NCBI GenBank assembly: GCA_017480785.1
Contig: JAFURZ010000006.1
Span: forward strand, 100,655-164,654
DNA: 64,000 bases
Reading direction: 5' to 3'
From: Bacteroidales bacterium
Lineage (GTDB): Bacteria; Bacteroidota; Bacteroidia; Bacteroidales; P3
In this document: piece by piece, positions 20,721-58,131 of the stretch
How positions within the stretch are numbered: the stretch's first letter is position 1
Layout of the letters: each line of letters opens with the position of its first letter
Notes under the pieces: model-generated
Seen by the model: the letters and a program-made list of their open reading frames with translations, nothing else
What the model was told of the DNA's origin: nothing
Database searches by the model: none
Program-made: the position numbers and the translations under genes

Positions 20721-21281
20721 TTATTGTTTCTTCCCCTGGTTCGGCAGCATCAACGGCTCATCAGCATCGACCTGCCCCCACATGTAGTCATGGAAGACAA
20801 CCTTCCTCGCTTCTGTTGTGCGTGCTTGGAAGACAGCCACCCAGTGGAAATAGGGCGACGCAATACACATGTCGTTGCTGACGGCTCCCGGGTCGTCCAG
20901 CCGGTCGCCCCACACCTCGGGATGGTCGGGTGCCGAATACCAGAAGTCGAGGATATGCATAGCCTCCCGTCCTGCATTCTCGAACGTCTTGCCCTGGCGT
21001 CGCAGCTCCTCCTCAAACTTCTCGGTCAGACGGCGGAAGTCGAACTCGTCCAGCATCCACTCCCAGCCCTCGTCGGTGAGGGCCTCCACGATGGTGACGC
21101 GGACCGTCAGGCTGTCGTTCAAGGGATAGTCCTTGATGAAACCTGCACGCACACCGGGCACATCCTTGCAGCGCTCGTACAGCACGCTGCCCTCCGGCTC
21201 GGCCGGACGCAGACGCCACACCGTCGCCGTCAGCAGCAGCACGGCCAGCACCCCGATGTATATGTACGCAGGTTTCTTCAT
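20721..21281 (-). CDS. Membrane-anchored protein of sigma module A (186 aa)
   Basis: A single N-terminal hydrophobic segment (IYIGVLAVLLLTATVW, residues 7-22) suggests inner-membrane anchoring with a periplasmic domain. The region after it (VLYERCKDVPGVRAGFIKDY, PLNDSLTVRVTIVEA) lines up by eye with the 167-aa protein at 57209-57712 (LFRQYYRVDGINASYLKEFS, LDDTLTVPVTVLTA), so the two are paralogues. Its start overlaps the preceding short TM gene by four bases. The order sigma factor, short TM protein, this protein is shared by both loci. A sensor or co-regulator role is inferred from context only. Confidence 0.65.
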   Translation of the reverse strand: MKKPAYIYIGVLAVLLLTATVWRLRPAEPEGSVLYERCKDVPGVRAGFIKDYPLNDSLTVRVTIVEALTDEGWEWMLDEFDFRRLTEKFEEELRRQGKTFENAGREAMHILDFWYSAPDHPEVWGDRLDDPGAVSNDMCIASPYFHWVAVFQARTTEARKVVFHDYMWGQVDADEPLMLPNQGKKQ

Positions 21282-21652
21282 CTTATGCTTCTCGTCATGC
21301 CATTAGAGGATTGAAAAGTACCCCCCCCGTCGGACCAGAGGCGCGCCACCGCAGGAGCCGAGCAGGTGCCCAGGGCCGAGCAGGCCCGGTTCACCACCAG
21401 CGCCTCGTCGCCCTCGAGGTTGCAGAGCACCTGCCGGTCGTCCACCCGCTGGGGCAACAGCATGTACCACCCCGCCGGCAACGCCAGCAGCACCACCATG
21501 GCCGCCACGCGCAGGGCCGCACGCCGCGTGGAGCACCAGGCACCCACGTCGCCGCCCACCTGGCGCGACAGCCGCCACACATGTCCGGCATCGGCCGCAC
21601 GCCGCCGCGCCTGCTCGCGCTCCATCAACTGTAATACATCTATATTTTCCAT
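21278..21652 (-). CDS. Short one-TM protein, candidate anti-sigma factor, module A (124 aa)
   Basis: The product has a charged N-terminal cytoplasmic stretch (residues 1-45, Arg-rich), one membrane segment (AAMVVLLALPAGWYMLLP, about 49-66) and a short periplasmic tail. It is encoded after the sigma gene and overlaps the next gene by four bases. The partners at 53863 and 56928 have the same N-terminal plan: an acidic/hydrophobic start, a W-x(n)-R-R-x-x-R segment, then a TM helix. No zinc anti-sigma HxxxCxxC motif is seen, so the anti-sigma call is inference. Confidence 0.6.
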   Translation of the reverse strand: MENIDVLQLMEREQARRRAADAGHVWRLSRQVGGDVGAWCSTRRAALRVAAMVVLLALPAGWYMLLPQRVDDRQVLCNLEGDEALVVNRACSALGTCSAPAVARLWSDGGGTFQSSNGMTRSIR

Positions 21653-21667
21653 ATTCCTTATCTTTTT

Positions 21668-21806
21668 AATGGCGAATTATGCGAATGGCTCTAAGCTTGC
21701 GCAGGTCAATTGGGGGCTAATTACTCGAAGCTTTCGCAGGAGCAATTCGAGTAATTCGCCTGCCATTGGGCGCGTCAGCCCATTCGTTAAATTCGTTAAA
21801 TTCGCC
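21668..21806. repeat. GGCGAATTAyxCGAAT-type intergenic repeats in module A
   Basis: This stretch between the sigma gene and its partner holds no gene. It contains GGCGAATTATGCGAATGGCT with CGCAGGTC downstream, AATTACTCGAAGC/GAGTAATTCGCC inverted copies, and TTCGTTAAA repeated twice. The same words occur at 56311-56350, upstream of sigma module B (GGCGAATTACTCGAATTACG, GCGAATGGCTACGCAGGTC). It could form hairpins and act as a dispersed repeat or an intra-operon regulatory site. Confidence 0.6.
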
Positions 21807-21819
21807 GTTTCCATAATCA

Positions 21820-22314
21820 TTATCCGTTATTGGCTTTCTGTCTCATTTTTTCTATTATCGCCGTGTGCAGCCGTGAGGCCTCGGCGGGGGCGATGTGCAG
21901 CACCTCCCCTATCTCGCCGTCGGTATAGCCGTCGAGCACCAGGTCCAGCACGCGGTGTTCCACCACCGTCAGGTCGGCCGCCAGGCGGTCGATGGTGTCG
22001 CGGGCCGAGGTGTCGTCGGCCGCCACCTGCTGTGCCGCCTCGAGCGGCACGGTCTCCACCTGCGGCCGGCGGCGCAGGTGCTCGAACACGCTGCGGCATC
22101 GCACGCGCACCCACGCCCGCTCCTGTGCCGGGGTGGCGCCGGACCGCAGCGTGTGGCGGTAGTGCCACAGGTGGGCCAGCACCTCCTGCATCAGGTCGGC
22201 CACGCGTTCCGCGTCGCCACCGGCATGCCACCAGCAGAGGCTCCGGATGAGCCCCCGGTGGCGCGTCGCCAGCGCGTCGAAGTCGTCGTAGCGTGAAGTG
22301 CCGTTGCCTGCCAT
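21820..22314 (-). CDS. ECF-type RNA polymerase sigma factor, module A
   Basis: The 164-aa protein has an ECF layout: a region 2 block (ALATRHRGLIRSLCWW, DLMQEVLAHLWHYRHTL) at about residues 13-60 and a region 4 helix-turn-helix block (VLDLVLDGYTDGEIGEVLHI) near 122-142. It would direct RNA polymerase to a small regulon in response to a membrane partner. The partner is encoded 167 bp downstream. Similar proteins are at 53399 and 56441. A TACTATAT box lies 18 bp upstream of the ATG. Confidence 0.82.
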   Translation of the reverse strand: MAGNGTSRYDDFDALATRHRGLIRSLCWWHAGGDAERVADLMQEVLAHLWHYRHTLRSGATPAQERAWVRVRCRSVFEHLRRRPQVETVPLEAAQQVAADDTSARDTIDRLAADLTVVEHRVLDLVLDGYTDGEIGEVLHIAPAEASRLHTAIIEKMRQKANNG

Positions 22315-22726: not shown

Positions 22727-24178
22727 ATGATGAAAAGAGCCGTTCCCCTTGCTGTATTGACGATGCTGCTACTGTTTGCACCGCCCGTGGGCGCGCAATA
22801 TGGCAGTTACTATTACCACCGTGTGGGCGACACCATCGAATGGAAACCCAACAACGGGTATTTTTCATGGTGGGAATTCGAATACTATCACGAAAACAAC
22901 CTTAAAATTAGCATTGATAAAAACTACTTAGGAACCCCCACAGGTCATGACTCCTGCCGGATACTGCAATATTTCTACACGCCGACCCCGTTGAAAATCA
23001 TTGGCGTGGCTGGGTCCAGCATCAAATATCGCGCCGATACCTATGTGCCAATCCCTAATTTTCTTTCCGCCAGCGTGACCGGTGGCGAGCCTGAATACTA
23101 TCTCATCTACGACGCCGACAGCACCGACTTCGTCCTGAAAGCGCGTGTCGAATGGAACTCATGTGACCCACACCGGATGGTACACCTGTGGACTCACAAA
23201 GGTGTTCAATTCTGGGGCAGTGGCAGCAGTATGGATGACAGTTGCTGCAATACCAACACTGAAGAAATATATCTCCCGATTTTTGAATACTACTTCGACG
23301 AGCCCATCTACGTCACCGACTCGTTCTATGTTGGAACCACGACCCGCAATCTTGCACGTGCCTCATCAGATATTTACGCTATGCCCATGGTCCCGGTGAC
23401 CCGTGGCTACTCAGATTGCAACAACGATAACATAGCTTTCTACATCAATGCTTGCTACCCCGTCAATCTCACCCAGAAAGGTATCGGAAGTACTTGGCGG
23501 CCCAATACTATGACTGCATATCCTACCGACCAATGGTGGTGGGCGCACTCCTCTGTCGACCATGATTTGTGCCCGCTGCTGATTTACCCCATCATCCAGG
23601 TCGACACAACCCTGCCGCCACCCGACCTGTGCGATTCGCTACGCAATGTACAGGTCACCAACACAGACTCCACCGCCATCGTCACTTGGGATAATTTCCC
23701 GAACTACAGCAGCGTGTATCTCAAATACGGCTATGGGAGCCCCAACCTATGGCAAACCGTCGACGTCACAGGCAACACCTCGTACACCATCACCAATCTC
23801 GTGCCCGGACAACGCTACGGTGTCACGATGAAGGCCGTGTGCGAAATCAGCAAAAAGGAGACGCCCTGGACAGAACCCGTCCACTTCTACACCGTCCCTG
23901 GCACTACCGCCATCGAGGAGGGACCACAAAACCCGGCATCGCCCCTCGCCGCCCAAACCTTCCTCCAGCCCAACCCCGCACACGGCAATACCACCGTCTC
24001 CTCTTTCTTCAACCTGAGACGCATCGAGATTGTTGATATCCATGGCGTGATGGTCTACAGCGAACCCGTCCACGGCCACCGCGTCACCATCCCCCTCGAC
24101 GGGTTGCGCAGCGGGACCTACATCGTCGCCATCCACACCCACGACGGCACCACCCACAAGAAACTTATCGTTCAGTAG
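22727..24178 (+). CDS. T9SS-secreted protein with fibronectin-type III domain and type A tail
   Basis: The 483-aa product has a signal peptide ending at VGAQ (about residue 24) and a large Tyr/Trp/Cys-containing domain (30-285) of unknown type. A fibronectin III-like module follows (LRNVQVTNTDSTAIVTWDNF to GVTMKAVCE, about 305-385). The last 75 residues (FLQPNPAHGNTTVSS, IVDIHGVMVYSE, SGTYIVAIHTHDG, KKLIVQ) are a type A T9SS sorting domain. It is presumably surface-exposed. The gene stands between sigma module A and a large palindromic repeat. Confidence 0.85.
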   Translation: MMKRAVPLAVLTMLLLFAPPVGAQYGSYYYHRVGDTIEWKPNNGYFSWWEFEYYHENNLKISIDKNYLGTPTGHDSCRILQYFYTPTPLKIIGVAGSSIKYRADTYVPIPNFLSASVTGGEPEYYLIYDADSTDFVLKARVEWNSCDPHRMVHLWTHKGVQFWGSGSSMDDSCCNTNTEEIYLPIFEYYFDEPIYVTDSFYVGTTTRNLARASSDIYAMPMVPVTRGYSDCNNDNIAFYINACYPVNLTQKGIGSTWRPNTMTAYPTDQWWWAHSSVDHDLCPLLIYPIIQVDTTLPPPDLCDSLRNVQVTNTDSTAIVTWDNFPNYSSVYLKYGYGSPNLWQTVDVTGNTSYTITNLVPGQRYGVTMKAVCEISKKETPWTEPVHFYTVPGTTAIEEGPQNPASPLAAQTFLQPNPAHGNTTVSSFFNLRRIEIVDIHGVMVYSEPVHGHRVTIPLDGLRSGTYIVAIHTHDGTTHKKLIVQ

Positions 24179-52655: not shown

Positions 52656-52675
52656 CAAAAAAATTTTACTCTCTT

Positions 52676-52707
52676 GTCAGATTTCGGCGAAAAAGTGGGT
52701 ATTATAT
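52676..52707 (+). promoter_or_regulatory. TATTATAT-type promoter for the sigma C operon
   Basis: Only 56 bp separate the terminator from the ATG at 52712, so the operon promoter must lie here. GTCAGATTTCGGCG (52676-52689) and TATTATAT (52700-52707) match GTCAGAAATCGCCC and TATAATAT before the sigma B gene with the same spacing. The box ends five bases before the ATG, which implies a leaderless or nearly leaderless message. Confidence 0.55.
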
Positions 52708-52711
52708 GGGC

Positions 52712-53398
52712 ATGAAACGGACGATAGTCATTATGCTGCTCCTGCTCTCGGCGCTGGCAGCCCAGGCACAGGAAGAATTTGAAGAGGACAGCGTGCTGAT
52801 TTCGGGCACGGTGGTCAACCGCATGACGGGCCAGCCGGAGCCCTACACCATAGTGCGCCTGATGCAGGCGGGAGCGCTGCGGGCGGCGGCATGGTGCGAC
52901 AGCACGGGCAGCTTCGGCGACCTGTTGCTGCCCGTGGGGGGCTACTTGCTTGAGGTGCAGGTACAGGGCGTCACGCTCTACCAGGCCGACCTCTTGCTGC
53001 AGCAGGATGCCAACCTCAGCATCGGCGTCATCACCGACACACTGCGCATGGTCGACCTGCGCGAGGTGCGTGTGACGGCTCTGCGCCACCTGTTGGGGTC
53101 GCGCTACATCGCCTCGCCCGACGACGTGCGCCTCTGGAACATGCTCTACCGCAACGGAGGAGGCAGCCACGAGGCCGCGGTCGCCATCTCGCCCGATATG
53201 CAGCCCGAGATGGACATACTGGACCTTGAGAACGGGGTGGTGCGGACCCTCCTGCCCATCAGAACCCCCGCCAAGGCCCACAAGTATTTCACCCGCAACG
53301 CCGGCCTCAAGGTCGACGCCACCAACAGCGACATGAAGAACGACCTGCTCCAGAACGGCCGCATCCGCGACACGAAGGTACCCGCCAAGAAGGAATAG
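52712..53398 (+). CDS. Exported protein with carboxypeptidase-regulatory-like domain (228 aa)
   Basis: A signal peptide (MKRTIVIMLLLLSALAAQAQ, cleavage after about residue 20) is followed by an acidic stretch. A beta-sandwich segment comes next (SVLISGTVVNRMTGQPEPYT, YLLEVQVQGVTLYQADLLLQ, residues 28-95) that looks like the CarboxypepD_reg-like domain of TonB-dependent proteins. The tail (TDTLRMVDLREVRVTALRH and beyond) resembles the part just before a TonB plug, but no receptor barrel follows. Its stop codon abuts the sigma gene start, so it is the first gene of the sigma C operon. It may be a surface partner or target of that sigma factor. Confidence 0.65.
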   Translation: MKRTIVIMLLLLSALAAQAQEEFEEDSVLISGTVVNRMTGQPEPYTIVRLMQAGALRAAAWCDSTGSFGDLLLPVGGYLLEVQVQGVTLYQADLLLQQDANLSIGVITDTLRMVDLREVRVTALRHLLGSRYIASPDDVRLWNMLYRNGGGSHEAAVAISPDMQPEMDILDLENGVVRTLLPIRTPAKAHKYFTRNAGLKVDATNSDMKNDLLQNGRIRDTKVPAKKE

Positions 53399-53866
53399 AT
53401 GGACCTCCAAGCCACATACACCGCCCTCCTCTGCCGCCACCGCCAGTTGGTGTGGACGCTCTGCTGGGCGCGTGCCCGTGGCGACCGTGAGCGCTGCCGC
53501 GACCTGGTGCAGGACGTCAGCCTCTCGCTGTGGGAGCATTTCGGCAAGCTGCGTCCGGAGGCCAGCCCCTTCGAGGAACGCGCCTGGGTGGCGTGGCACA
53601 CCCGCACCGTGCTCGACCATCTGCACCGCCGCCCCTCCCCCACCCTTGTGCCGCTGCCCGACAATCTGTCCGCCAGCGAAGACCACGACCGCGAGACCCT
53701 CGACGAGCTGCTCGAGAGCCTCACCGATACCGACCGCCAGCTGGTACAGCTGCGCCTCGAAGGCTACAACGCCGACGAGATAGCCGAGCAGACAGGCCTC
53801 CGCCGCGATGCCGTCTACCAGCGCCTGCACCGCATCATTGAACGTTTACGTAAGGAGAAAAGATGA
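53399..53866 (+). CDS. ECF-type RNA polymerase sigma factor, module C
   Basis: The 155-aa protein has sigma region 2 (TALLCRHRQLVWTLCWARAR, CRDLVQDVSLSLWEHFGKLR, residues 8-60, with RTVLDHLHRRP near 75) and region 4 (QLVQLRLEGYNADEIAEQTG, DAVYQRLHRIIERLRKE, near 118-153). It begins directly after the upstream stop and overlaps the next gene by four bases. It is similar to the sigma proteins at 21820 and 56441; shared words include VYQRLHRII/IYQRYHRII with the latter. Confidence 0.88.
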   Translation: MDLQATYTALLCRHRQLVWTLCWARARGDRERCRDLVQDVSLSLWEHFGKLRPEASPFEERAWVAWHTRTVLDHLHRRPSPTLVPLPDNLSASEDHDRETLDELLESLTDTDRQLVQLRLEGYNADEIAEQTGLRRDAVYQRLHRIIERLRKEKR

Positions 53867-55071
53867 AACACGAAGAGATAGACAATTTGATTGACCGCCT
53901 GCAAGGATTTGACACCGACGAGCTGCAAAGCGCCATGAGCGACGGCTTCGACGAGTGGTGCCAGCGACGCCAGCAACGCGGCCGCACCCTGCGGCGCCTT
54001 GCTGTCGTGGCCTTGCTGCTGCTCACCTCCACGGCCCTCGCCATGTCCGTGGTGCCGCAATGGCGCCCCGCATTCTTCTCAGGAGGAGCCAAGACGCCTG
54101 TGCAGTCGGCCTGTGCACCGGCCCCCAAGCCGCAACCGCACGTCGCGCCGGTCGATACCGTCAGTGTCACCAGTAAGACCGACGCCACTGTCGACTACAC
54201 CTACTTCGGACGCTCCGAAGAGGGCTACTCCGTCACCTATGGCGTCGACTCCCGTACGCTTATCTACACCCGCCGGGTCGGCAACCGTATCATCAGCTCC
54301 TTTGTACACAATGCCTCCGACAGCCTCTTTGCCGACTCGGTGACCGACACCCTTTCGGAGCCCGTTGTCGATGGCGTGCAGGCGGCATCCGACATGCAGG
54401 AAGAGATAGTGTACGACTTCCTGTCGACCAGCCCGCAGGGCGACACGCTGCTGTTTGCCATCGTCGACTCCATGGAGCATCGGGTCAGCGTCTACAGCAA
54501 CGAGAATCGTTTCGGCCGGTGCCATGACAGCCTTGTCCTTCCCACGTGGGTCTTCCACGACGGCGAGCGCTACACGGTCACCGTCGTCGACGGCAAGGCA
54601 TTCGCCGGCTCCGCCATCCGCGCCCTCGTTCTGCCGGCCAGCGTGCAGGTGGTATCCGACAGTGCCTTCGCCGATTGCTGGCGCCTGAGGAAAGTATTGG
54701 TGCTGGGCGAGGTGCCGCCGCGGCTGGGCGCGAATGCCTTCGCCTCCATCGACCGAAAGGCGCTGCTCACCGTGCCCTGCCACACGGCCGATGTCTACGA
54801 CACAGCCTCCCGTTGGGGTGTCAGTTTCGGCTACAATATTGAGGAAGACTGCGCCGGAGTGCAGGAGGTCGAGCCACAGGTGGCCATAGTCCGTGTGGGG
54901 CGTGGCGAAATCAGCGTCAGCGGTGTCGACGAACAATGGTGGGTCTACGACCTGCGCGGCCAGCGTGTGGCCAGCCATCTCGGCGAAGGCACCGTCAAAA
55001 TCAATGTCCCCGGCACCTATGTCGTCATCGTGGGCGACCAGCTGTCGCAGAAGGTGATGGTGACCCTGTAG
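53863..55071 (+). CDS. One-TM protein with BspA-like leucine-rich ectodomain, candidate sigma C sensor
   Basis: The 402-aa protein starts with a polar cytoplasmic part (LIDRLQGFDTDELQSAMSDG, WCQRRQQRGRTLRR, residues 8-46), like the short partners of the other sigma genes. One TM segment follows (LAVVALLLLTSTALAMSVVP, 47-66). The periplasmic part holds a BspA-like leucine-rich repeat segment (AFAGSAIRALVLPASVQVVS, SAFADCWRLRKVLVLGEVPP, near 246-286). The end (WWVYDLRGQRVASHLGEGTV, NVPGTYVVIVGDQLSQKVMV) resembles a sorting-tail domain. It overlaps the sigma gene by four bases. Sensor or anti-sigma function is inferred. Confidence 0.6.
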   Translation: MKHEEIDNLIDRLQGFDTDELQSAMSDGFDEWCQRRQQRGRTLRRLAVVALLLLTSTALAMSVVPQWRPAFFSGGAKTPVQSACAPAPKPQPHVAPVDTVSVTSKTDATVDYTYFGRSEEGYSVTYGVDSRTLIYTRRVGNRIISSFVHNASDSLFADSVTDTLSEPVVDGVQAASDMQEEIVYDFLSTSPQGDTLLFAIVDSMEHRVSVYSNENRFGRCHDSLVLPTWVFHDGERYTVTVVDGKAFAGSAIRALVLPASVQVVSDSAFADCWRLRKVLVLGEVPPRLGANAFASIDRKALLTVPCHTADVYDTASRWGVSFGYNIEEDCAGVQEVEPQVAIVRVGRGEISVSGVDEQWWVYDLRGQRVASHLGEGTVKINVPGTYVVIVGDQLSQKVMVTL

Positions 55072-56362: not shown

Positions 56363-56425
56363 GTTAAATAATGTTAAATCTACACCTGTCTATGTCAGAA
56401 ATCGCCCAAAAAACGTGTATAATAT
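56363..56425 (+). promoter_or_regulatory. Repeat and TATAATAT promoter upstream of sigma B
   Basis: GTTAAATAATGTTAAATC (56363-56380) is followed by GTCAGAAATCGCCC (56394-56407) and TATAATAT (56418-56425). The box is 15 bp before the sigma B ATG. The last two words match the promoter region at 52676-52707 at identical spacing. Probable promoter, perhaps read by this family of sigma factors. Confidence 0.55.
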
Positions 56426-56440: not shown

Positions 56441-56935
56441 ATGAACCGCCGAGAGGAAGAAATATTAACCCTCTATGCCGAGCTGTTGCGCGACTTCCAG
56501 TCGCATCTGCTCTCCTATTGCTATCGGCATAGTCGTGACGAGGCCGATGCCGACCAGCTTCTTGTGGGCATCACTAACGCCATGCTGCGCGGCGTTCGCA
56601 CTCTGCGTCCCGACAGCAGCCCGAGCGAGCGCAACCGCTGGCTCCGGCGTTTGATGCGCCAAACCCTTGCCGACCACCGTCGCCGCCAACCCTCCTTCGT
56701 CTCGATTGACCATGCAATTGACATCGCCGTCGAAAGCGACGCCGATGCCGAGCTTGTCGAGTCGCTCCTGCAACACCTCAACCCCGACGAGCGTGCACTT
56801 CTTCAGGACCGCCTTGCCGGCTTTACCCCTTCCGAGTTGTCTGGGAGGTACAATGTCTCCGTCGATGCCATCTACCAGCGCTACCACCGGATTATTAAAA
56901 AGCTAAAAACAATATACAAACAATATTATGAATAG
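56441..56935 (+). CDS. ECF-type RNA polymerase sigma factor, module B
   Basis: The 164-aa protein has a divergent sigma region 2 (LYAELLRDFQSHLLSYCYRH, residues 10-29; LRRLMRQTLADHRRRQPS near 70) and a region 4 helix-turn-helix (LLQDRLAGFTPSELSGRYNV, DAIYQRYHRIIKKLKTIY, near 125-160). It overlaps the next gene by eight bases. It is the most divergent of the three sigma proteins, as the usual DLVQEVF block of region 2 reads DQLLVGITNAML. Confidence 0.78.
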   Translation: MNRREEEILTLYAELLRDFQSHLLSYCYRHSRDEADADQLLVGITNAMLRGVRTLRPDSSPSERNRWLRRLMRQTLADHRRRQPSFVSIDHAIDIAVESDADAELVESLLQHLNPDERALLQDRLAGFTPSELSGRYNVSVDAIYQRYHRIIKKLKTIYKQYYE

Positions 56936-57212
56936 AGAATTGCAAGACTTTCAAGACCTTGAGCTGCTGCTTCGACGCCACGCCTTCCGCGCCGACGTGA
57001 ACCGTCTGCGTGCCGGACTCTCCTCAGGCTATGCGGCTTGGAACCGCCGTCAGCACCGCGGCGACGTGCTGCGCTTTTCCGTCGCGGCCTGCTTTTTCCT
57101 GACCGCCATCGTTGTTTCCACATCCGAGGCACAGGCTGCACCATACCGCCTTCAGGGTGACCAGACCTATTCTGATTCCACTCTTTTTGTGCAGGAGGCA
57201 CTGTTGCAATGA
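56928..57212 (+). CDS. Short one-TM protein, candidate anti-sigma factor, module B (94 aa)
   Basis: The 94-aa protein has a cytoplasmic N-terminal part (FQDLELLLRRHAFRADVNRL, GLSSGYAAWNRRQHRGDVLR, residues 8-49) and one TM segment (FSVAACFFLTAIVVSTSEA, 50-68), then a short tail. The G-x-x-x-W-x-R-R-x-x-R-G pattern before the TM resembles GFDEWCQRRQQRG in the sigma C partner. It overlaps the sigma gene by eight bases and the next gene by four. No HxxxCxxC motif is present. Confidence 0.6.
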   Translation: MNRELQDFQDLELLLRRHAFRADVNRLRAGLSSGYAAWNRRQHRGDVLRFSVAACFFLTAIVVSTSEAQAAPYRLQGDQTYSDSTLFVQEALLQ

Positions 57213-57712
57213 AGCTGCGGTCGTTCATTGTCAGGATTGCAATCCCCAGCCTGATGGTCCTCCTTGGAGTTGGTTGCTGTGTGTGGTTCCATTTCCATCC
57301 ACGCCAGCTGCCGTTGAGCCAGTGCAGCGAACTCTTTCGCCAGTATTATCGCGTAGACGGCATCAACGCTTCTTATCTCAAAGAATTTTCTCTCGACGAC
57401 ACCCTCACCGTCCCGGTCACCGTTCTTACTGCTGCCGATAGTTCCATTTGGTTCACGCTGGTCCAGGAGCTCCATATTCCGGAAGTCATTATCGCGAGAA
57501 TGCAGAGCGACACCTCGGCTGTGATTTCAAAAATGACGCGCAAGGGACAGTACGACCAGCCGCCCGACAGCTCGATGGCCAACAATGAGTTGGTATTCCT
57601 CTACCCTGTCGCGAAAACCCTCTTTGTCTTCCATCTTGAATCGGAAACCCAATATGATGCTATCTTCAGCTATAAATACAGAATGCAAAAACACCCCTTA
57701 AACATTAATTAA
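57209..57712 (+). CDS. Membrane-anchored protein of sigma module B (167 aa)
   Basis: An N-terminal hydrophobic segment (IAIPSLMVLLGVGCCVWFHF, residues 10-29) is followed by a periplasmic domain. ELFRQYYRVDGINASYLKEF and LDDTLTVPVTVLTAADSSIW align with the 186-aa protein of module A (20721-21281). It overlaps the short TM gene by four bases (ATGA). The pair of paralogues at two sigma loci suggests a common sensing or effector role, not otherwise known. Confidence 0.65.
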   Translation: MKLRSFIVRIAIPSLMVLLGVGCCVWFHFHPRQLPLSQCSELFRQYYRVDGINASYLKEFSLDDTLTVPVTVLTAADSSIWFTLVQELHIPEVIIARMQSDTSAVISKMTRKGQYDQPPDSSMANNELVFLYPVAKTLFVFHLESETQYDAIFSYKYRMQKHPLNIN

Positions 57713-57714
57713 TT

Positions 57715-58131
57715 ATGAAAAAAAGAACTATTTTAGTCGCCAGTCTTGCGGTGCTCGGACTACTGGCCGCCGGTTGTCAAAAAGAAACATTGTTGAACTC
57801 CCAGAGTTCCATAGCCCAGTCCGATGCTACCTTGTGTCAGATGAATTATTCCGTTGACGGTAATACCTATTCCGTGATACTTCACGGAGACGGCGAGTTG
57901 GAACTATTGTTGCGACAGCTGAATGCCATTTCTCGTGAAGGGCACAGGGTCATAATAGCGGGAAATGCCACCTCAGCCAATCCCGTCGGGACAAAGGAAA
58001 TCCTGACGTTTACCACCACAAATGAAGATGAAATGATTGCGTGGGAGAAAGCCCGAGTCAGAGAAGGCTACACTGTGGAAGTGGTTTATGATTCAAAAAC
58101 AGGGAGATACACGGGTACGGCCGTCCGGTGA
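57715..58131 (+). CDS. Lipoprotein at end of sigma module B (138 aa)
   Basis: A lipoprotein signal ends LLAAGC (Cys21). The mature part has YSVDGNTYSVILHGDGELEL, LLRQLNAISREGHRVIIAGN and TTTNEDEMIAWEKARVREGY, with a final EVVYDSKTGRYTGTAVR. The pattern is that of a small two-layer domain with a conserved Trp; no family was recognised. It begins 2 bp after the previous stop, so it is the fourth gene of the sigma B operon. A GTTAAATAATGTTAAATC repeat begins directly after its stop. Confidence 0.7.
   Translation: MKKRTILVASLAVLGLLAAGCQKETLLNSQSSIAQSDATLCQMNYSVDGNTYSVILHGDGELELLLRQLNAISREGHRVIIAGNATSANPVGTKEILTFTTTNEDEMIAWEKARVREGYTVEVVYDSKTGRYTGTAVR

Follow-up and report, generated by a model that had tools for sequence, protein, structure and literature searches.

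Two operons of Porphyromonas gingivalis, PG_0214-0216 (SigCH) and PG_0985-0987, consist of an extracytoplasmic function (ECF) sigma factor, a partner and a DUF4252 protein, in that order; we take PG_0214/0215 to be the genes also numbered PGN_0319/0320. Two papers report that the genes of these operons change together in transcriptomes (PMC10101095, PMC10434189), and a third calls the anti-sigma role of PGN_0320, downstream of SigCH, not elucidated (PMC7712824). The same paper describes the PorA/PorXY/SigP pathway of P. gingivalis, in which an ECF sigma factor that controls envelope genes receives its input from a surface protein that ends in a sorting domain (PMC7712824). In other described systems, ECF48, ECF52 (SCO4117), ECF53 and ECF243 (IutY), the sigma factor, a transmembrane (TM) helix and an outside part are joined in one polypeptide: according to PMC8999054 and PMC5826349, known fused ECFs carry an anti-sigma domain within the fused part, and proteolytic release is shown for IutY and proposed for ECF48, ECF52 and ECF53. 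Here, we compare with these systems three loci, A, B and C, in a stretch of 64,000 nucleotides of a Bacteroidales genome, called the window in what follows (positions 100655-164654 of contig C15, in a genome of 2.25 Mb and 19 contigs). By homology, the three operons are paralogues, each with an ECF sigma gene followed by that of a one-TM partner, and C is the split version of sigma-TM fusions that sister species encode as one polypeptide.

The initial annotation described the three loci as ECF sigma factors with short one-TM partners. All its open reading frame (ORF) positions were right, but partner C, with 402 amino acids (aa), is not short, and C turned out to be of a different subtype, that of the fusions. 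The features of the loci are the following:

20721..21281, minus strand: A third protein, 186 aa, with an N-terminal membrane anchor; related to the B third protein (family alignment).
21278..21652, minus strand: A one-TM partner, 124 aa, with WCSTRR in the cytoplasmic start before the TM helix; ORF, without Pfam or NCBIfam match.
21820..22314, minus strand: A ECF sigma factor, 164 aa, divergent; TIGR02937 at the cut-off, BLAST, tree.
52675..52706, plus strand: promoter predicted for the C operon, with TGTCAGATTT..GGTATTATA exact; motif scan.
52712..53398, plus strand: first gene of the C operon, for a secreted protein resembling CarboxypepD_reg; match below the Pfam cut-off, paralogue on contig C12.
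53399..53866, plus strand: C ECF sigma factor, 155 aa, its stop overlapping the partner start (ATGA); ORF, TIGR02937.
53863..55071, plus strand: C partner, 402 aa; ORF, relatives fused to sigma.
56393..56424, plus strand: promoter predicted for the B operon, with TGTCAGAAAT..GTATAATA exact; motif scan.
56441..56935, plus strand: B ECF sigma factor, 164 aa; ORF, TIGR02937.
56928..57212, plus strand: B one-TM partner, 94 aa, with SSGYAAWNRRQHR before the TM helix; ORF, motif, BLAST to partner C.
57209..57712, plus strand: B third protein, 167 aa, membrane-anchored; ORF, third-protein profile.
57715..58131, plus strand: B fourth gene, lipoprotein-like ORF, 138 aa; its family follows third proteins.

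The four B genes are adjacent (56441-58131), and the C locus has no third-protein gene. The first ORF of the C operon is listed from 52706, with an ATG at 52712 directly after the -10 element; its product is 44% identical to a paralogue in an operon on contig C12 of the same genome, where the same promoter is found.

Profiles of regions 2 and 4 place the three sigma factors among the ECF sigmas. With TIGR02937 (cut-off 42.9), sigma B scores 55.3 bits and sigma C 73.5 bits, and sigma A is borderline, with 42.9 in one scan and 42.2 in another; in Pfam, region 2 of sigma A is below the cut-off and its region 4 has no match. Pairwise comparison by BLAST gives 41% identity between sigma C and sigma A (E 2e-31), and 30% between sigma C and sigma B (E 4e-20). 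In the tree, A, B, C and the fused sigmas form one clade with support 100/98, within which sigma C is nearest to another split pair and sigma B sits on a long branch whose exact place is unsure. The profile of the P. gingivalis factor, NF058625 (sigma_PG0214, cut-off 130), gives 19.9 bits for A and 39.6 for C, and B is not among the matches listed.

The relatives of C were reached by a search of 59 genomes of the genus with partner C, which led to ORFs where a sigma factor and a C-type membrane protein are one polypeptide; the nine named relatives are Bacteroidales or Bacteroidetes metagenome-assembled genomes, some of them from rumen and reticulum. A profile of the junction finds 74 such fusions in 54 of 120 genomes of the genus, counted by hand as rows that cover at least 67 of the 82 profile positions without stops, leaving out one G187 row with internal stops and the rows that cover the sigma part only. 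Since many of the 120 genomes are incomplete, these figures are a lower bound. In the alignment, the fusions pass directly from the end of sigma region 4 into the same TM segment and the VVPQWR that follows it, whereas the split partner C has 40-odd cytoplasmic residues of its own at this place. The TM helix starts 14 residues after the VYQR of region 4 in 45 of the 47 distinct fusions measured, and 13 or 15 residues after it in the other two; none of the 47 has an anti-sigma domain between sigma and TM, and the zinc anti-sigma motif HxxxCxxC is absent from all 56 fusion-set ORFs. Contrary to ECF48, ECF52, ECF53 and ECF243, which have a zinc finger or a fused anti-sigma factor between sigma and outside part, the fusions reach the membrane about 14 residues after VYQR, with no room for an anti-sigma domain, and their outside part is BspA-LRR/DUF6383-like in the long forms (LRR: leucine-rich repeat). 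In the open-access papers searched, no fused or membrane-tethered sigma of this Bacteroidales kind turned up.

Ten fusions were tested against known families: all ten are above the cut-offs of TIGR02937 and Pfam region 4, and the five long ones among them carry LRR_5 above cut-off (173-212 bits). Four of these five end in a sub-threshold DUF6383 match, and no sorting domain of type A of the type IX secretion system (T9SS) was recognized there. The ratio of nonsynonymous to synonymous substitution rates (dN/dS) is below 1 in the sigma, junction and outside parts wherever it could be computed in 12 pairs, some with saturated dS, its highest value being 0.93 in one TM segment of 21 codons. In a family sample of 149 genomes, junction matches are confined to this one genus of 12, and no fusion was found in 294 other genomes of a class sample (E 1e-12, at most 18 first-look candidates scored per genome). 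A single origin of the fusions is neither shown nor rejected (p-AU 0.148, approximately unbiased test), and the change may have been a fusion or a fission. Reading of C-type and fused loci turned up no third protein. A proline-rich linker follows the TM helix in many fusions and is a plausible candidate for a protease site. At three loci, L282 (G272:C10), L231 (G231:C6) and L283 (G258:C16), at least two TM-fused sigma genes are found, with short and long forms close together.

Partner C itself begins with about 45 cytoplasmic residues, including DGFDEWCQRR, followed by a TM helix from about residue 46 and a large outside part; the latter has a weak BspA-LRR (LRR_5) stretch and a sorting-tail-like end, both below cut-off, and scores 12 bits with the T9SS type A sorting-domain profile TIGR04183, below its cut-off of 23. 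The likeness to PorA/PorXY/SigP is that a surface protein with a sorting C-terminal domain is linked to an ECF sigma factor; however, in P. gingivalis the sorting-domain protein is separate and acts via a two-component system, whereas here the tail-like domain forms part of the sigma factor's own membrane partner.

Partners B and C match across the motif before the helix (BLAST, E 5e-4). The pattern [GE][YFLVI]xxWx{1,2}R is present in 15 of 45 cytoplasmic partner segments, including B and C from which the motif was taken, against 0.4 expected, and none of 1000 shuffles scored as high; the W-R pattern noticed in the initial annotation is far above chance. The absence of HxxxCxxC, also noticed there, holds for A, B and C and extends to all 74 extracted partners, which places them outside the zinc anti-sigma (ZAS) class. 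No curated anti-sigma family in Pfam or NCBIfam matches the window partners at E up to 1, nor does the FecR family match A, B or C at that threshold, and neither partners nor third proteins of the window have anything above cut-off in these databases, the nearest match being the LRR_5 stretch of partner C. Whether the partners' cytoplasmic segment might be a degenerate region 4 of sigma was also considered and rejected, its scores lying within those of shuffles (the score of C was reached by 65 of 300, those of the six others by 98 to 300 of 300). In the outside tails of seven sister-genus partners (L147, L149, L150, L152, L154, L157 and L159), a motif C(N/S)xxC has both cysteines invariant in 7 of 7 aligned sequences, and similar tails were recognized by eye in several partners of the genus.

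A common promoter is suggested by the upstream regions of the fusion-set ORFs and the three window sigmas, 55 in all, 40 of which contain TGTCAGA; in 30 shuffles, no 7-base word rose above 9. B and C share the exact promoter TGTCAGA-N17-GTATWATA, with -10 element GTAT(T/A)ATA. Allowing up to 3 mismatches, this promoter is found upstream of 41 of the 52 ORFs of the fusion set, three of them split-type partner ORFs, with 21 exact copies and 4.0 expected from shuffles, and upstream of 33 of 91 module sigmas, where 9.0 are expected. The window has two matches at this threshold, about as many as in shuffles (mean 1.12, at most 4), but both are exact and precede the C operon (52675-52706) and B (56393-56424). 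In the whole genome, seven sites are exact, a further one differs by 1 mismatch and two more by 2, and a backward control gives 4 sites at up to 2 mismatches. Two sub-types can be distinguished, TGTCAGATTT..GGTATTATA for C and TGTCAGAAATCG.CCAAAAAACGTGTATAATA for B, the latter present at B, at a module on contig C5 and at C15:12414. At this last site (L311), the exact B-type promoter precedes ORFs resembling small lipoproteins or secreted proteins, with no sigma gene among the ORFs displayed. Upstream of the sigma genes in one group of modules with similar third proteins (L075, L091, L120), the promoter form is a distinct one whose -10 element resembles CGTTTA, a hint that the promoters of paralogues have diverged.

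The C-type promoter has 32 exact sites in 21 of 119 genomes of the genus, and the backward pattern has none. A fused C-type sigma is present in 18 of these 21 genomes and a split one in three, namely the window's own genome (G000), G187 and G014. The genes behind 31 of the 32 sites are 13 sigma genes (one of them, L326, assigned by coordinates just upstream of the fused gene in L244), 7 secreted BspA-LRR proteins, 5 CarboxypepD_reg-type proteins and 6 small lipoproteins; the LRR calls L333, L334 and L338 and the CarboxypepD_reg-type calls L316 and L320 come from sequence reading and not from Pfam, as does the small-lipoprotein label, taken from sequence alone. Pfam applied to ten such proteins yields LRR_5 in 3 of 3, a CarboxypepD_reg-like domain above cut-off in 2 of 3, and no family in the 4 lipoproteins. 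At 12 of the 13 sites that precede a sigma gene, the start codon lies 6-9 bases after the -10 element, which suggests near-leaderless transcripts. In the window's own genome, the four exact C-type sites stand before two LRR proteins, the C operon and the C12 gene pair, whose second member is the paralogue of the first C gene. All 13 genomes with a non-sigma promoter site fall among the 57 of 119 with a C-type sigma (3e-5), a figure that ignores phylogeny, includes sites beside sigma loci, leaves out G187 and takes its 57 genomes from the 120-genome search; we use it as supportive only.

Turning to the third proteins, those of A and B are paralogous, as the initial annotation had it (32% over 79 aa, E 8e-8). 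A profile built from six third proteins and applied to 61 genomes of the family at E 0.01 finds copies in 14, that is, in 8 of 8 genomes of the same genus and 6 of 6 of one sister genus, and no match in the remaining 47 genomes, from ten genera. The window's genome alone has 11 third-protein modules plus C, and the view of a duplicated family of membrane signalling modules stands. Its gene order, which had been proposed for a search in other Bacteroidales, is conserved: an ECF sigma gene lies upstream on the same strand for 92 of 97 third proteins in 14 genomes of two genera, the 97 being the hits in the stretches around all matches except eleven (ten of the sister genus, one of G052). An automatic rule places a TM partner between sigma and third protein in 74 of the 97; it missed partners of the own genome that were read by eye on C18, C16 and C1, and its picks include some over-extended frames and some with two or more hydrophobic segments. 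In 44 of the 97, the gene directly after that of the third protein is a fourth, lipoprotein-like one. A scan of viral contigs with the third-protein alignment matched 22 stretches, none of which was confirmed, and among solved structures there is no clear relative of the third family or of DUF4252 (only E above 0.4).

The order sigma, one-TM partner, secreted third protein of A and B is that of the PG_0214-type operons. Genes of DUF4252 (PF14060) are found in 48 of 119 genomes sampled across the order, in many families; among 30 such loci read, 29 have a sigma gene (one of them cut by a contig end; L169 has none in its stretch) and 26 have a TM ORF between sigma and DUF4252 by the automatic rule. 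Since operons of this layout occur across Bacteroidales and in P. gingivalis, the A and B modules are not wholly undescribed, and the suggestion that they might be is not supported in the form given. The differences are that partners A and B are shorter, that partner C has an LRR-like outside part, and that the third proteins have no PF14060 match: this family gives none in the window's genome at E up to 10 and does not appear among the 25 families, perhaps not a full list, that were reported for 44 third proteins. Applied to the ORFs of the 30 DUF4252 loci, the third-protein profile has 8 weak matches (E up to 1, best 1.2e-4), all of them DUF4252 ORFs by position. Seven longer partners of the sister genus align with the DUF4252-operon partners at 97.6% (hhalign), versus 60%, over 14 columns only, for the short window-type partners. 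The NCBIfam family NF052375, 'anti-sigma factor', weakly matches 6 of 17 DUF4252-operon partners (best E 6e-7), the one whose score is shown being far below the cut-off. The A and B modules probably work like the DUF4252 type of operon and derive from it, yet they are not filed as DUF4252.

Homology, conserved gene order, the fusions, the conserved promoter and the genes behind it, which are established by comparison of sequences, are best explained as a whole, and we are fairly confident of this, if the loci are membrane-tethered ECF sigma switches, released by a signal, that regulate both themselves and an envelope regulon. The one-TM partner would keep its sigma factor at the inner membrane by means of some 40 cytoplasmic residues. 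Its sensing part would lie outside; in C this would be a large domain of the partner itself, and in A and B a short tail together with the third protein, which is separate. An envelope signal would free the sigma, most likely through regulated cleavage of the partner, probably with RseP, which is present in the genome (170 bits, cut-off 147.55). The freed sigma would then transcribe its own operon, in B and C from TGTCAGA-N17-GTATWATA, and C-type sigmas would also drive a small set of envelope genes, those of secreted BspA-LRR proteins, CarboxypepD_reg-type proteins and small lipoproteins. Where sister species have the C pair as one polypeptide, the sigma would be anchored by the TM helix directly after region 4.

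Several observations weigh against this explanation, in which the binding of sigma by its partner, the use of the promoter by the sigma, the proteolytic release and the signal are all inferred. The only promoter match of A has 3 mismatches and a 13-base spacer, lies 238 bases upstream and is no better than chance, and 58 of the 91 module sigmas have no promoter within 3 mismatches; consequently, the promoter belongs to C-type and some B-type sigmas and not to the whole family. Partners A and B show no similarity by BLAST (E 11), and with the motif in only 15 of 45 segments, the tether may not be one homologous domain. Pfam region 2 is above cut-off in just 5 of the 10 fusions tested, and the window's own genome has no fused form. 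Finally, the link between third proteins and DUF4252 rests on an N-terminal segment: the hhalign probability of 95.6% over 50 columns, with signal sequences included, falls to 32% and 12% once these are trimmed.

That last comparison also bears on an alternative for A and B that overlaps the tethered-switch explanation, namely that they are diverged ordinary sigma/anti-sigma/DUF4252 operons of the PG_0214 type, in which case the family is simply a known one. We hold this to be possible, short of probable: the shared layout, the untrimmed alignment, the 8 profile matches to DUF4252 ORFs and the 97.6% of the longer sister-genus partners argue for it, whereas PF14060 finds nothing in the genome and is missing from the families listed for the third proteins, NF058625 stays far below its cut-off, and the C-type and fused loci read have no third protein at all. 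It is also conceivable, though we deem it unlikely, that the membrane proteins are not inhibitors and that the sigma works while tethered, in the manner of ToxR, the TM fusion being its active form without any release. In its favour, the fusions leave no space between region 4 and TM where an anti-sigma domain would fit, and their junction is under constraint by dN/dS. However, it has to contend with the presence of RseP, with the proline-rich linker, which may be cut by a protease, and with IutY, a known sigma/anti-sigma fusion that is activated by cleavage according to PMC8999054.

The membrane proteins could, still more modestly, be mere co-transcribed products of the sigma without any role in its control. 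The predicted promoter does stand before the B and C operons themselves, and both the third and the fourth protein resemble envelope proteins; but 74 natural fusions of sigma to a C-type membrane protein in 54 of 120 genomes, and the upstream sigma gene kept by 92 of 97 third proteins across two genera, make this quite improbable. As for the fused ORFs being decaying or mis-assembled genes, a few of those extracted do end early at a contig or locus edge, and one at a stop; yet the same junction in 54 genomes, the near-fixed TM offset and the promoter conserved upstream leave this idea with next to no credibility, and decay was rejected on dN/dS below 1.

We now turn to the outside part of the long fusions. 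After the linker, the three that were compared resemble the LRR protein encoded downstream of the promoter on contig C8 of the window's genome, with identities of 65%, 58% and 54% in alignments of 496-533 residues, the best identity being 65% over 522 residues; partner C matches this protein in pieces only, at 28-39%. A signal-peptide segment like that of this putative cargo lies inside the ORF in 15 of 17 long-fusion rows (15-residue hydropathy 0.97-1.72), with some rows being one gene twice and the two exceptions being one gene. No such segment was seen in C of the window, and four long fusions checked have no copy of the promoter elements inside the ORF. In L232:2130-4340:+ and other long fusions, the signal-peptide-like segment comes with an in-frame Met at about residue 275-300. 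In the three long fusions, it is as if a near-complete secreted BspA-LRR preprotein, signal peptide included, had been appended after sigma and TM.

The members of the family appear to be gene switches that hold a sigma factor at the membrane, and in the long form the outer part seems to copy the surface protein that is switched on. It is tempting to conjecture, rather tentatively and with more doubt than trust, that C and the fusions related to it are transmembrane sigma factors that work much like receptors, keeping watch on the same surface proteins whose genes they turn on. The tethered LRR copy may then be a mimic of the cargo that reports on secretion or surface status, the sigma being freed when more cargo is needed, and the internal signal peptide could allow one ORF to give both a sigma factor and a secreted LRR protein.

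If the tethered-switch explanation is true, a large uncultured genus of Bacteroidales has made the ECF sigma/anti-sigma pair into a one-piece transmembrane sigma factor, without separate anti-sigma domain, several times over in some genomes, and wired to envelope genes. The split and fused forms would be natural experiments on which part of the partner controls the sigma, and the whole would provide a handle on the regulation of BspA-LRR surface proteins. The promoter sequence and the predicted regulon are specific enough for immediate testing.

One neighbour of locus A may be recorded as well. On the plus strand, at 22727-24178, and divergent from sigma A, lies the gene of a secreted protein of 483 aa whose sorting domain is of T9SS type A (36 bits with TIGR04183, cut-off 23).

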